Shown here piece after piece: positions 2,316 through 44,300 of a stretch of 44,300 bases of DNA (within the stretch, counting starts at the first letter, position 1; the number at the start of each line of letters is the position of its first letter). The DNA is taken from the NCBI GenBank assembly GCA_026705345.1, contig JAPPAV010000022.1, forward strand, positions 1 through 44,300, given 5' to 3'. The notes under the pieces are model-generated. The model was not told where the DNA came from. It searched no databases and was given only the letters and a program-made list of their open reading frames with translations. This stretch comes from Gammaproteobacteria bacterium (GTDB taxonomy: Bacteria; Pseudomonadota; Gammaproteobacteria; Pseudomonadales; Azotimanducaceae). The position numbers and the translations under genes are program-made.

Positions 2316-3818
2316 TCAACCGGCGGCCACCGAGGTCCGCATCTCCTCGAAGCCGGTTCGCGCGACGTCGTCCGGGATCAGCGGATAGCGAATGCCGGCC
2401 CATTTCTGCGTCACGCGGATCACCTGGCAGGCGTAGCCGAACTCGTTGTCGTAGTAGGCGTAGAGGATGATGCGGTTGCCGGAGACGATGGTTGCGCCAC
2501 CATCGATGCTGCAGGCGTGGCGATTGCCGATGTAGTCGCTGGAGACGCGTTCCTTCGACGATGTGTAATCGATCTGACGCTGAAGCGAAGAGTCCAAGGC
2601 CACGTCGCGAAGATACCCGTTGACCTCTTCCAGCGTGGTGTCGCGATGCAGTGTCAGGATGAGTATCGCGAGCGACACGTTCGGGGTCGGCACCCGGATG
2701 GCATTGCCGGTCAGCTTGCCATCCAACTCCGGAAGCAGCTTGGCAACCGCTTTCGAAGCCCCCGTCTCCGTAATCACCATGTTGAGCGGCGCGGCGCGAC
2801 CCCGACGGTCGCTCTTGTGATAGTTGTCGTGGAGATTCTGGTCCGGCGTGTAGGCGTGGACCGTCTCGATGTGGCCGTGGACAACGCCCCACTTGTCGTT
2901 GACGGCCTTCAATACCGGCACAATTGCGTTGGTGGTGCAGGAGGCGCAGGAAACAACCCGGTCCTGGTCGCCTACCTTGTGCGAATTCACGCCCGAGACG
3001 ATGTTCTTGATGCCGCCCTTGCCGGGGGCGGTCAAGAGGACTCGGGCGATGCCTTTCGACTTCAGATGCTCGACCAGTCCGGCCTCGTCCCGCCACGCAC
3101 CCGAATTGTCGATCAGGATGGCGTTGTCGATTCCGTAGCGAGTGTAGTCGATGGTCGACCGATCCTCTTCGTAGATCATGTGAACGACGTTGCCGTTGAC
3201 GATCAGGCACTGGTTGTCCTCGTCGACGCGGATCGTGCCGTTGAACGCACCGTGCACCGAATCCCGTCGCAAGAGCGCCGCCCGTTTCTGGATGTCGTCG
3301 TCGCGTCCCGGTCGAAGCACCACCGCTCGCAGCACCAACTGGTCGCCGCCGCCGGTTTTCTCGATCAGCAGCCTGGCCAGTAGTCGTCCGATACGACCGA
3401 ATCCGAACAGGACGACATCCTGCGGCTTGGCCAGCGGTTTTACGTGGCGGCCGATGACGTGGGCACTGGCTTCGCGGACGAACTCCAACGGCGAGACGTC
3501 GTCACCCTGCTGCTGCCGCTCCATGAGGCGCACCGCCAGCTTGCCCACATCCGCGTGGGACGGGCCTAGATCGAGCTTCGAAAGCGCCTCCACAATCGGG
3601 TAGCTCTCGAACTCGGACAGTTCGTTCTCGGCCACCTGACGCACGAATCGGTGCGTCTTCATGATGTCGGTCACGCTCCGGTTGTGCAGCGCACGCCCGT
3701 AGCAGTAGACAACGACGTTCTTGCGGTACAGCTGACCGATGAGGGGAATCATCGCTTCGGCCAGCCCCTCGCGCTCTTTCCAGTCCGGGAAGTAGTCTTC
3801 AAGGTTGGGTAGTGCCAC
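2316..3818 (-). CDS. gap: Glyceraldehyde-3-phosphate dehydrogenase, long form with N-terminal extension
   Basis: A 500-residue GAPDH with about 130 extra residues ahead of the catalytic core. The core has the NAD(P)-binding loop GFGRIGR (139-145), the catalytic cysteine in SCASCTTN (C294), the catalytic base in TVHAYTPDQ (H321) and the C-terminal NEFGYACQV segment. This long class is known from Pseudomonas (PA3001, next to mfd) and other gammaproteobacteria, and is distinct from the about 335-residue glycolytic type. It oxidises glyceraldehyde-3-phosphate with phosphate and NAD(P)+, or works in the gluconeogenic direction. The start is GTG at 3818. In this window it is about 17 kb from mfd, so the Pseudomonas adjacency is broken. 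Two further GAPDH-family genes lie at the right end of the window. Confidence 0.93.
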   Translation of the reverse strand: MALPNLEDYFPDWKEREGLAEAMIPLIGQLYRKNVVVYCYGRALHNRSVTDIMKTHRFVRQVAENELSEFESYPIVEALSKLDLGPSHADVGKLAVRLMERQQQGDDVSPLEFVREASAHVIGRHVKPLAKPQDVVLFGFGRIGRLLARLLIEKTGGGDQLVLRAVVLRPGRDDDIQKRAALLRRDSVHGAFNGTIRVDEDNQCLIVNGNVVHMIYEEDRSTIDYTRYGIDNAILIDNSGAWRDEAGLVEHLKSKGIARVLLTAPGKGGIKNIVSGVNSHKVGDQDRVVSCASCTTNAIVPVLKAVNDKWGVVHGHIETVHAYTPDQNLHDNYHKSDRRGRAAPLNMVITETGASKAVAKLLPELDGKLTGNAIRVPTPNVSLAILILTLHRDTTLEEVNGYLRDVALDSSLQRQIDYTSSKERVSSDYIGNRHACSIDGGATIVSGNRIILYAYYDNEFGYACQVIRVTQKWAGIRYPLIPDDVARTGFEEMRTSVAAG

Positions 3819-40860: not shown

Positions 40861-42405
40861 TCAGTAGATCGACCCCATCTCCCAGACATCGAGCTCGGTA
40901 ATCTCGCTCGCCCGCCCTTGGGAACGGAACGATATCCCCGTGCTGTCGGCCCGGTCCGGATAGACGCGGGCAGCAACGCACTGCTTGCCGTTCACGAACG
41001 CCTCGACGATGCTCTTGTCGACGAATACGCGAAGTTCGAGAGGCTCCTCGGTACCTAAGCGCACCGGGGCCGTCTCGGGCGCTCTTGAGCTGACATCCGA
41101 CGCGCTAGAGGAATAGGACGTATCGAGGGTGACCAAGCTGGCGATGTGGTGACGCCGCAACACGGTGTCCCGATAGCCCCGGTCCCGGTAGAAGGCGATG
41201 CGCGTGACCTCCTCGCGGTTCGGCGATCGCAGCACATTGAGTTCCACCATGGAGGCCGCGCTCGGCGCAATCACGGCCCGGATCTCCAAGGCATCACCGC
41301 TCAAGTCGTCCAAGACCACTTCCCGGTTCGCTGGGAGCGATTGCGGTCTCCCACCGAGTCTCGACTGCCGGCAGGAAGCCACCGCCTCGACCGGTTCCTG
41401 GAGAAGTTCATCGCCGTCGCCCAAGGACAGGCGGCGAGGCAGGCTCATGATCTGGTTCCAGCCCGCCGAGGGTTTGCCCGGGTTCATGTTGAAGATGACC
41501 ACGACGTCGCGTCCGTCGGGCGTGGCCGAAGGCGCATGCACGCCGCACGGCTTCACAGGGCCCATGTTGAACTTCCCCGCACCGGTCACGACAAGCCTCT
41601 GTCGGTTCGTGTCGTAGTCCCCGAGCAGGTATTGACCACCGCTCATATGGCTGAAGAAGAGCAGCACGTGCTTGTCGCCGATTGGCCAGAAATAGGGGCA
41701 TGCGCCATCGTCCCCGACCCGTGTGAAGCGGTCGTCTTCGGTGAACGGGTGCAGGTACTCCCAATGCTGCAGGTCATCGGACCGGAATAGGAAATCCGCC
41801 GCGACGGGCATGCCCCCGGGACCCTCGGGCACTTGGCCCGCGGATAGTGAGTAGTAGTTCTCGCCGTGCTTCCAGATGCACGGGTCGAACACCCGGTACG
41901 GCAGCGGCGGATCGTCGGGCCCCGCCATCGGGATGACGGGGGCGTCGCCGACCTTGGACCAGTTGAGCAACAGCGGATCGCTCGAGACCGCCACCATGTT
42001 GCCCGCCTCCGTGCCGTGGTACATCGCGATCACCCGGTCGTCCTCCACCAGGGTCGCCCCCGAGAAGCAGCACCGCTCCGGGTCGGGATAGATACAGTAC
42101 GGCAGGTCGCGCCAATGGATGAGGTCTTCGCTCACCGCATGGCCCCAGTGCTGGCGGGGATCCTCCGGCGGGTAGGCCTGGTAGAAGAGGTGCCACCTGC
42201 CCTGCCAGCGACACAGCCCGTTGGGGTCGTTCAGCGTCCCTTCCGGGTTGACGTAGTGATAGACGGGGCGGTGGCGGTTTTCGGCCAGGAAAGTACGCGA
42301 CCGGGCGAGCCGCTCCATCATCGGATGGGACGCCAGCACCGCCTCCTGCTCGGCAAGGGTGTCGGGGTACCTGTGCAACGGAACTTTGGATCGGTAGTCG
42401 GTCAT
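40861..42405 (-). CDS. GH32-family glycoside hydrolase-like protein lacking the usual acid/base Glu
   Basis: A 514-residue protein with the GH32 five-bladed propeller (about 45-340) and C-terminal beta-sandwich (about 360-510). The nucleophile motif NDPNG (D60) in NPEGTLNDPNGLCRW is intact, and the stabiliser motif appears as FDP (D174). The acid/base motif, normally ECP, reads ACP here (DDGACPYFWP, A235). Typical members hydrolyse sucrose, levan or inulin. The C-terminal segment ELRVFVDKSIVEAFVNGKQCVAARVYP is the standard sandwich signature. No signal peptide is seen, so it is likely cytosolic. ATG 42405 was chosen over TTG 42417. It is divergent from the cysteine-less GAPDH. Activity is uncertain; another residue may supply the proton. 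Confidence 0.82.
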   Translation of the reverse strand: MTDYRSKVPLHRYPDTLAEQEAVLASHPMMERLARSRTFLAENRHRPVYHYVNPEGTLNDPNGLCRWQGRWHLFYQAYPPEDPRQHWGHAVSEDLIHWRDLPYCIYPDPERCCFSGATLVEDDRVIAMYHGTEAGNMVAVSSDPLLLNWSKVGDAPVIPMAGPDDPPLPYRVFDPCIWKHGENYYSLSAGQVPEGPGGMPVAADFLFRSDDLQHWEYLHPFTEDDRFTRVGDDGACPYFWPIGDKHVLLFFSHMSGGQYLLGDYDTNRQRLVVTGAGKFNMGPVKPCGVHAPSATPDGRDVVVIFNMNPGKPSAGWNQIMSLPRRLSLGDGDELLQEPVEAVASCRQSRLGGRPQSLPANREVVLDDLSGDALEIRAVIAPSAASMVELNVLRSPNREEVTRIAFYRDRGYRDTVLRRHHIASLVTLDTSYSSSASDVSSRAPETAPVRLGTEEPLELRVFVDKSIVEAFVNGKQCVAARVYPDRADSTGISFRSQGRASEITELDVWEMGSIY

Positions 42406-42493
42406 TCGGCTCTCCAACTCGGCAGCGGTGCCAAATCGTTGTCAGCATTCGTGCGATGATTGCCAATGCTACGGGGTTTTGGGCGTCTCAAGT

Positions 42494-43525
42494 TTGAAGG
42501 CACTACGCATCGGCCTGATGGGTTTCGGCCAAGTCGGTCGGCAGATCTACCGGTTGGCCCTGACGGACGACCGCTTCGACACGGTGGCGATCGCGGACAT
42601 CGGACAACCCGACATACTGCATCACCTGCTGACCAAGTCGATGGGTGGGGACGCCGATGTCACTCTGACCGGCAACCATCTGGTTGCGAGCGGGGGAACC
42701 GCGACGCAGAGGACGCGGCTGATGTCGACCGAACGACCCGGTGAGATTCCCTGGGACCTCTTAGACGTGGATGTCGTCATCGACGCCACCGGCCGCTACC
42801 GGTCACGTGCGGCGCTCACGCCCCACCTCGATAACGGCGCAAGACGCGTGGTGACATCCTCGCTGCCCGAGGGGGAACTGGACCGTGTCGTTCTCTACGG
42901 TGTGAACCAGGCGAGCGCCCTGCCCGCCGACCGCATCGTGTCCGCCGGATCCGCATCCACCACTGCCATGGCCCTGGCGCTTCGGGTCGTCACCGCGGCG
43001 GAGCCCATCGCACACGCCACGATGACTTCGGTACACGCCTATACGCGCGACCAGAGCCTCTACGACCATGCCGGGCCGGACTACCGCAGAAGCCGCGCGG
43101 CCGCGGGAAACATCATCCCCAACACCACACCGGCGCCACATTGGGTCGAGCAGGCGCTGCCCGCCGTCAAGGGCAAAGTCAGCGGATTCGCGCTGAACGT
43201 ACCCGTGGCCGTCGGTTCGCTGCTGGATGTCACCCTCGCCTTCGAGGACGCCGGCATGGCGGCCGACGAGATCAACGCATTGTTCACGACCGCCGCCGAA
43301 GCCGAGCCGGAACTCATCGCCGTGACCCGCGATCCGATCGTCTCCTCGGATGTCAGGGGTTTTTCGCAATCCATACTGGTCGACCTACAAGGCACGCTGA
43401 GGGCGGGCGAGAAGCTCATGAAACTGCTGGCTTGGCACGAGATCCTCGGCCATTCGCGCCGCATTCTCGATGTCGCCGCCCACTACGCCGGGCTCGATGC
43501 GGCCCGGACGGCCGGAGCAGGGTGA
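42494..43525 (+). CDS. GAPDH-family paralogue without the catalytic cysteine
   Basis: A 343-residue GAPDH-fold protein. The NAD loop GFGQVGR (10-16), the histidine region SVHAYTRDQSLYDH (H181) and the phosphate-site-like RRSRAAAGNIIPNTTPAP are retained. The active-site segment reads SAGSASTTA where GAPDHs have SNASCTTN, so the catalytic Cys is Ala154. It cannot form the thiohemiacetal used by phosphorylating GAPDHs. The start is uncertain: TTG 42494 gives the shortest sensible N-terminus, while the frame is open to GTG 42428 with a Cys-rich, unconserved extension. Its stop TGA overlaps the start of a canonical GAPDH gene by 1 nt (TGATG), so the two are translationally coupled. A regulatory or hetero-oligomeric partner role is inference. 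Confidence 0.85.
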   Translation: MKALRIGLMGFGQVGRQIYRLALTDDRFDTVAIADIGQPDILHHLLTKSMGGDADVTLTGNHLVASGGTATQRTRLMSTERPGEIPWDLLDVDVVIDATGRYRSRAALTPHLDNGARRVVTSSLPEGELDRVVLYGVNQASALPADRIVSAGSASTTAMALALRVVTAAEPIAHATMTSVHAYTRDQSLYDHAGPDYRRSRAAAGNIIPNTTPAPHWVEQALPAVKGKVSGFALNVPVAVGSLLDVTLAFEDAGMAADEINALFTTAAEAEPELIAVTRDPIVSSDVRGFSQSILVDLQGTLRAGEKLMKLLAWHEILGHSRRILDVAAHYAGLDAARTAGAG

Positions 43526-44300
43526 TGCGAGTCGCAATCAACGGTTTTGGCCGCATCGGCCGCGCGGTATTCCGAATCGCCGAGGCGTCCGACGACATAG
43601 AGGTCGTGGCAATCAACGATCTGTTCGACCACGGCACCCTCGCCTACCTGCTCACCTACGACACCGTCATGGGCCGTTTCGAAGGCGGCGTCGACATCGA
43701 GGACGGTGAACTGGTGACCTCGCAAAGTCGCGTCCGGATGGTCAGCGAACGCGACCCGGCCCGCCTGCCGTGGGCGTCACTCGGTGTCGATGTCGTGGTC
43801 GAATCGACGGGCGTGTTCCGCACCCGGGATCAGATCGCGAAACACCTGCAAGCCGGCGCCGAACGGACATTGCTGACGGTGCCTGCCGGCGATCCCATCG
43901 ACTACACCGTGGTGATCGGCGTCAACGAAGACGGCCTGGGCGACCAGCACCGGTTGATCTCCAACGCGAGTTGCACAACCAACTGCCTTGCACCGGTGGC
44001 CAAGGTGCTGCACGACAACTTCGGCATCCGGGAAGGCATCATCAACACGGTGCATGCCTACACCAACGATCAGAGTCTCGCCGACGTGCCCCACTCCGAC
44101 CTGCGCCGCAGCCGCGCAGCCGCCGAGAACATCATCCCCACATCCACCGGCGCCGCGAAGGCGGTTGGCGAGGTGCTGCCCGATCTGAAAGGCCGGCTGG
44201 ACGGCATCGCCTCCCGCGTCCCCGTGCCCGACGGTTCGGTAGTCGACCTGTTCGTCGAGGTGGAACGGACCACAAGCGTCGACGCCGTGCACGACGCGAT
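43525..44300 (+). CDS. gap: Glyceraldehyde-3-phosphate dehydrogenase, 3' end outside window
   Basis: The first 258 codons of a standard-length GAPDH. The NAD loop is INGFGRIGR (5-13), followed by NDLFD (31-35), the catalytic C150 in ISNASCTTNCLAP, the base H177 in TVHAYTNDQ, and the phosphate-binding SRAAAENIIPTSTGAAKAV. All expected catalytic residues are present. It catalyses the reversible oxidative phosphorylation of glyceraldehyde-3-phosphate; the Asp after the second strand suggests NAD rather than NADP. The ATG at 43525 shares its A with the stop of the cysteine-less paralogue. It is the third GAPDH-family gene in the window and by its motifs the most likely main glycolytic or Entner-Doudoroff enzyme. 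Confidence 0.95.
   Translation, partial: MRVAINGFGRIGRAVFRIAEASDDIEVVAINDLFDHGTLAYLLTYDTVMGRFEGGVDIEDGELVTSQSRVRMVSERDPARLPWASLGVDVVVESTGVFRTRDQIAKHLQAGAERTLLTVPAGDPIDYTVVIGVNEDGLGDQHRLISNASCTTNCLAPVAKVLHDNFGIREGIINTVHAYTNDQSLADVPHSDLRRSRAAAENIIPTSTGAAKAVGEVLPDLKGRLDGIASRVPVPDGSVVDLFVEVERTTSVDAVHDA

Follow-up and report, generated by a model that had tools for sequence, protein, structure and literature searches.

A homolog of glyceraldehyde-3-phosphate dehydrogenase (GAPDH) that has lost the catalytic cysteine is encoded directly in front of a canonical GAPDH gene across several families of gammaproteobacteria. The homolog, which we call A, is under purifying selection, and we consider it likely that it is an old pseudoenzyme subunit, one that assembles with its canonical neighbor, B, into a mixed tetramer in which the S-loop of A tunes the cofactor site of B.

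Results

A GAPDH homolog without the catalytic cysteine precedes a canonical GAPDH gene

The window, by which we mean the whole stretch of 44,300 nucleotides that was analyzed, is an entire contig (G000:C121) of an Azotimanducaceae genome. The two genes lie at its right-hand end (Table 1). Gene A is taken to start at a TTG, upstream of which there is an in-frame GTG at 42428, and it stops at a TGA (43523-43525). Its product matches both Pfam domains of GAPDH above their cutoffs (Gp_dh_N, 57.6 bits; Gp_dh_C, 113.4 bits) and is 38% identical to B over the part of B present in the window. Its score against the type I GAPDH model TIGR01534 is 222.8 bits, under the curated cutoff of 367.2, and four other A proteins likewise score below that cutoff (213.5 to 330.3 bits). 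Models of two other kinds of GAPDH homolog fit no better: A was rejected as an erythrose-4-phosphate dehydrogenase (NF010058, 162.1 bits against a curated cutoff of 539) and as an ArsJ-associated GAPDH (NF033735, 169.2 bits against 450).

Table 1. Positions in the window of the two genes, their key residues, and neighboring or related genes
Feature	Position	Strand	Basis
Gene A, Cys-less GAPDH homolog, 343 aa, TTG start, proposed noncatalytic partner subunit	42494..43525	+	Gp_dh_N and Gp_dh_C domains
GCA codon for Ala154 of A, aligned with catalytic Cys149	42953..42955	+	alignment with B's Cys150
His181 of A, the retained counterpart of active-site His176	43034..43036	+	residue alignment
Asn235 of A, replacing substrate-phosphate Arg231	43196..43198	+	residue alignment
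TGATG, one-base overlap of A stop and B start	43523..43527	+	sequence
Gene B, canonical type I GAPDH, ATG start at 43525, cut by contig end	43525..44300	+	profile matches; 3' end on G000:C44
TGC codon, Cys150 of B, catalytic	43972-43974	+	
Third GAPDH, PRK08289 type	2316-3818	-	
GH32 gene, sucrose-6-phosphate hydrolase-like	40861-42417	-	

A sequence-only reading of this DNA had noted that an alanine takes the place of the catalytic cysteine in A, that the NAD loop and the active-site histidine are kept, and that the gene overlaps a GAPDH gene by a single nucleotide. All of this was confirmed: Ala154 stands opposite Cys150 of B, the GxGxxG loop and His181 are present, and the coordinates of the A stop and the B start share one base. 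The same reading had called the downstream gene intact. B is indeed canonical, with its catalytic cysteine, but the gene is cut by the contig end and its remainder is on C44. The assembly breaks within gene B, and C44 opens with a few residues unlike B before repeating the last 17 B residues of the window.

The genome also holds a third GAPDH, of the PRK08289 type and unlinked to A and B; it has the canonical cysteine and is extended at its N terminus. With this second canonical enzyme present, gene B need not be the cell's only source of GAPDH. Two further GAPDH homologs were met elsewhere. In one genome of the same genus (G015), an ArsJ-associated GAPDH (L053:7072-8073; NF033735, 511 bits) adjoins arsJ and has Tyr at the position of the catalytic cysteine (TAASYTTNC), an arrangement seen in that genome only. 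A GAPDH on an IMG/VR contig classed as viral (L180) is canonical and keeps the SCASCTTN and RVP motifs.

The A-B pair is conserved across families

Among 38 genomes scanned (the window's own included), 15 have a main-type A gene, namely that of the window and 14 others at 48-89% identity. A sixteenth A gene, in G019, is more divergent (37% identity; motif SNASG). Ten A loci were also found on named genome contigs, titled Gammaproteobacteria or Pseudomonadales metagenome-assembled genomes, but these overlap with the genomes already scanned and hence provide no independent count. The main-type A loci of these first two scans all read SAGS(A/G) at the cysteine site and all have a canonical gap gene directly behind them.

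A profile (A1) built from 16 A proteins was used to search a sample of the order, in which 32 of 390 genomes, from eight families, gave a match of at least 422 bits. The next best match listed, at 277 bits, was a canonical GAPDH; the divergent A of G019 itself scores like a canonical GAPDH with this profile (271 bits). Within the family to which the window belongs, an A-type match of at least 432 bits was obtained in 38 of 200 genomes (39 genes). In a class-wide sample of 369 genomes, three carry A in addition to that of the window, all three from one family outside the order. As a control, we read the best 26 further matches of the class search with another profile (A3) beyond the A-type genomes, and all 26 of these GAPDH loci retain both Cys149 and Arg231. 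Finally, a phylum-wide sample of 398 genomes yielded no A besides the window's own at 1e-83, a threshold that would miss divergent members like that of G019.

Gene B adjoins gene A on the same strand in all 32 of the A-type genomes of the order, as judged by coordinates (for one, G135, the genes are known from coordinates alone and their residues do not enter the counts below), which excludes a chance neighborhood of the two genes. Wherever the contig allowed inspection, every A seen had a B beside it; in one further genome of the window's family (G1134), A lies at a contig edge that leaves no room for B. Conversely, a single-contig genome (G1212) holds the pair twice (L172 and L173), the two copies being 97.6% identical in A and 98.5% in B. 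Once repeat loci within a genome, G1134, and three named contigs that duplicate loci already scanned had been dropped, 67 distinct pairs were left. The two genes are co-stranded in every one; in 54 the A stop shares 1 or 4 nucleotides with the B start, the remaining pairs being 0-17 nucleotides apart. From these overlaps we infer that A and B are translationally coupled.

A has lost the nucleophile and a substrate-phosphate arginine

In none of the 67 distinct pairs does A have a cysteine at position 149 (Ala in 52, Pro in 7, Ser in 5, Gly in 3), whereas Cys149 is present in all 67 B proteins; His176 is found in all 67 A proteins. The recurrence of this arrangement in 67 distinct pairs excludes a recent mutation or a sequencing error at the cysteine site, and no A homolog that was read, close relatives of the window included, has Cys there. 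Because A was separated from B in this set by the presence of Asn at position 231, the count for that position was taken from a second set in which rows were chosen by score and not by residue. There, Arg231 is replaced by Asn in 48 of 48 A proteins and is Arg in all 46 B proteins that reach the position. The A rows read in a further scan have Asn there as well. The same set gives Ala in 35, Pro in 7, Ser in 4 and Gly in 2 of the 48 A proteins at the cysteine site, Cys149 in 47 of 47 B proteins, and His176 in all A and B.

The claim of the sequence-only reading that the phosphate-site motif is kept in A thus holds only in part. In PMC9287727, the substrate-phosphate (Ps) site is made up of Arg231, Arg195 and Thr179, while the Pi site includes Ser148 and Thr208. 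Among 66 A proteins (the G019 gene, which has Leu at 195, lies outside these), Ser148 is kept in all 66, Arg195 in 62 and Thr179 in 61, but Arg231 has given way to Asn. Lacking both the nucleophile and one Ps-site arginine, A should be unable to oxidize glyceraldehyde-3-phosphate.

GxGxxG and Asp32 are kept in the score-chosen alignment. At the nicotinamide end, Asn313 is found in just 18 of 66 A proteins (in a stretch beside an alignment gap) and Tyr317 has become His in 63 of 66. Loop 46-52, which we take to sit near another subunit interface, is altered in most A proteins, position 52 being absent in 61 of 66. The tip of the S-loop (187-189) is mostly Tyr/His-Ala-Gly in A as against Val-Pro-His in B: position 188 is Pro in all 64 B proteins that reach it and Ala (62) or Val (4) in the 66 A proteins, and it is Pro in the A of G019. 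The most divergent A genes, those of G019 and family f157, have Gly and Ser, respectively, at the cysteine site and already have Asn at 231, which fits a single origin of A.

A is under purifying selection and shares its history with B

Pairwise dN/dS values were low for both genes (0.07-0.15 for A and 0.06-0.11 for B in the same 11 comparisons), and the A frames are open over the length of the domains. A is therefore under purifying selection, in keeping with the earlier view that it is not simply decaying. It evolves faster than B, with a median pairwise distance of 0.485 as against 0.293.

In phylogenetic trees, the A sequences form one side of a branch with a support of 98, against B and the other GAPDHs. 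The B proteins of the pairs cluster together, with supports of 89 and 86 in two trees, the second of which omits six long or distant rows of the first; some branches are long. The single canonical GAPDHs of the window's family (L167 and L176) fall outside the B clade. The placement of the G019 and f157 A proteins with the main A clade depends on long branches and is supported by their common Arg231-to-Asn replacement. Distances among A proteins and among B proteins correlate (r 0.93, 63 pairs), as is expected of genes that travel together. Such co-divergence fits a complex of the two proteins, but operon linkage alone would produce it too. In addition, a pair from family f1 (L073) nests in both subtrees among pairs from families f40 (presumably Halieaceae), f4, f13 and f44, as if A and B had been transferred as a unit.

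A is predicted to adopt the GAPDH fold

An AlphaFold model of A had a pLDDT of 87.9 and a pTM of 0.89 with an alignment of 24 rows, of which 11 are A, 10 are B, one is the PRK08289-type GAPDH and two come from viral contigs, so that the alignment consists partly of canonical paralogs. (A model from the 11 A rows alone reached a pLDDT of 44.5 and was not used.) The 50 PDB matches listed for the model were all GAPDH or erythrose-4-phosphate dehydrogenase, with TM scores of 0.81-0.88 by query, and A is accordingly predicted to have the GAPDH fold. The S-loop residues of the model (188-204) have a pLDDT below 50.

The S-loop is not singled out by conservation. In an alignment that still included three repeat rows, its mean entropy within A was 0.67, compared with 0.66 for the former catalytic loop, 0.58 for the NAD loop and 1.38 overall; the former catalytic loop and the NAD loop are thus equally conserved. 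Segment 46-56 is far more variable in A than in B (mean entropy 2.96 vs 0.79).

The neighborhood of the pair varies

In one genome (G027), the pair is part of the arrangement zwf-pgl-edd-eda-A-B-ppc, beside a HexR-like gene (249.8 bits, under the HexR curated cutoff of 296). Three other loci read eda-A-B-ppc and lie next to a gene distantly related to that regulator (34-35% identical), and five more have ppc near the pair. Hence ppc is found at 9 of 32 loci, 4 of which have Entner-Doudoroff genes too, a lower bound since the search used one species' proteins as queries and flanks of 8-16 kb (a 26% edd match in L097 was not counted). With these queries, neither Entner-Doudoroff genes nor ppc were found at the other 23 loci, nor at any locus of the window's genus. 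Given that the neighboring genes change around the pair, the constant unit is A-B itself; where a metabolic setting can be recognized, it is formed by the Entner-Doudoroff pathway together with PEP carboxylase.

The idea that the pair in the window belongs to a glycolysis operon found no support. Upstream and divergent from A is a GH32 gene whose sucrose-6-phosphate hydrolase-like product scores below the TIGR01322 cutoff and which has this divergent position in close relatives, too. Downstream, on C44, the reading frames cluster with luciferase-like and MaoC genes of the relatives.

Discussion

The fold, the S-loop and the pocket residues of A are under selection, and wherever the contig allowed inspection A was not seen without B; the simplest reading of these observations is a mixed tetramer, which we regard as the likely state of the two proteins. 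A would be translated in step with active B by way of the overlapping stop and start and would assemble with it, probably as A2B2, with A opposite B across the R axis. In such an assembly the S-loop of A, conserved but altered at its tip, would line the cofactor site of B, and A may thereby tune the activity or the coenzyme preference of B in lower glycolysis and the Entner-Doudoroff pathway. If the altered loop 46-52 lies near another interface, as we assume, the symmetry of the assembly may be different. Also speaking against this reading, the S-loop of A is no more conserved than its former catalytic loop and NAD loop, Entner-Doudoroff genes or ppc turned up at 9 of 32 loci and at none in the window's genus, and the invariance of His176, Ser148 and Asn231 suggests that the pocket of A still does something.

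A bolder form of this proposal, which we offer tentatively and think unlikely to hold in full, is a two-component GAPDH. Half of its subunits would be permanently dead, and their altered S-loops, with Ala for Pro at 188, would complete the cofactor sites of the active subunits. The result would be a built-in half-of-sites enzyme with a changed coenzyme preference or direction suited to Entner-Doudoroff metabolism.

The main rival to a mixed tetramer is that A works as a separate enzyme built on the GAPDH fold, merely co-expressed with B and carrying out a new, cysteine-free reaction, for example as a dehydrogenase that uses His176 and Asn231 on another sugar phosphate. Such a separate activity is suggested by the invariance of His176 and Ser148, by an Arg231-to-Asn change that is fixed and not drifting, by the retention of GxGxxG and Asp32, and by a catalytic loop as conserved as the S-loop. 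Moreover, a cysteine is dispensable in other Rossmann dehydrogenases whose C-terminal fold is related. Nevertheless, we judge an independent enzyme rather improbable: the nicotinamide end is changed in most A proteins (at Tyr317 and, beside the gap, at Asn313), the residue at the cysteine site can be Ala, Pro, Ser or Gly, a variability that would be unusual for a new catalytic center, and no A was seen apart from B where the contig allowed inspection. Nothing positive was found in favor of the non-phosphorylating, hydrolase or epimerase activities that had been suggested for A.

We give little credence to a further alternative, in which A is an allosteric sensor that binds a metabolite in its reshaped pocket, within or beside the B tetramer, and does not act through the S-loop. 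The invariant Ser148, His176 and Asn231, the mostly kept Thr179 and Arg195, and the position of the partner enzyme beside Entner-Doudoroff genes in some genomes are in line with such a role, but it is a variant of the mixed tetramer with a putative ligand only. That A is a decaying duplicate, as its faster evolution might suggest, is contradicted by a dN/dS of about 0.1, by many invariant residues across 16 A rows down to 48% identity, by its occurrence in eight of the order's families and in one family beyond the order, and by reading frames that stay open over the domains in the A genes inspected, the single stops in two A matches (G005 and G208) proving from the open reading frames to be the genes' own ends.

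How does A compare with known systems? It shares with type I phosphorylating GAPDH (TIGR01534; Bacillus stearothermophilus and E. coli GapA) the fold, both Pfam domains, the NAD loop, His176 and the S-loop, and its best solved relatives are GAPDHs. It differs in lacking Cys149, in having Asn for Arg231 and mostly His for Tyr317, and in that the five A proteins scanned all fall under the TIGR01534 cutoff. Substitutions at the altered position are known from engineered Cys149Ala and Cys149Ser mutants of GAPDH (1npt and 1nq5). Those are laboratory point mutants, whereas A also lacks a Ps arginine and is without the cysteine across many families.

Dead partner subunits are a known kind. Pseudoenzymes kept with an active paralog include the trypanosomal AdoMetDC prozyme and plant PDX1.2, for which complex formation and activation are proven. 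They resemble A in that a dead paralog is conserved with an active one, but neither is a GAPDH. The A protein fits the description of such a partner, its catalytic residue having been lost family-wide under purifying selection and its gene being encoded and inherited with that of an active paralog. Among GAPDHs, a parallel is the chloroplast A2B2 enzyme (GapA/GapB), described in PMC3728087 and PMC3824636 as a mixed tetramer of paralogous subunits, one of which has a regulatory part. The likeness lies in the two paralogous subunits, the mixed tetramer of A and B being proposed here from sequence. GapB, however, carries its substrate and cofactor sites, and its own regulation depends on a CP12-like extension of about 30 residues at the C terminus; A has neither the catalytic cysteine nor such an extension (343 residues, as against 332-334 for the B proteins of relatives). 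A search of the open-license literature listed no paper on a cysteine-less bacterial GAPDH or on a dead partner of this enzyme. In the available portion of a Halieaceae genome paper, neither "glyceraldehyde" nor "GAPDH" occurs, and a regulon paper mentions no such gene in its passages on HexR.

Few enzymes have been studied as much as GAPDH, which is as a rule regarded as a tetramer whose subunits are all active. Since A and B both match the same family models best, the pair is easily missed, and a match to a GAPDH model in these genomes does not by itself identify a gene as GAPDH. If our reading is correct, a conserved dead subunit fixed to GAPDH would amount to a natural test of cooperativity and half-of-sites reactivity and would reveal a means of regulating the step that follows cleavage of KDPG. 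In some gammaproteobacteria, GAPDH may thus be a two-part enzyme, some of whose subunits tune the reaction and do not catalyze it.
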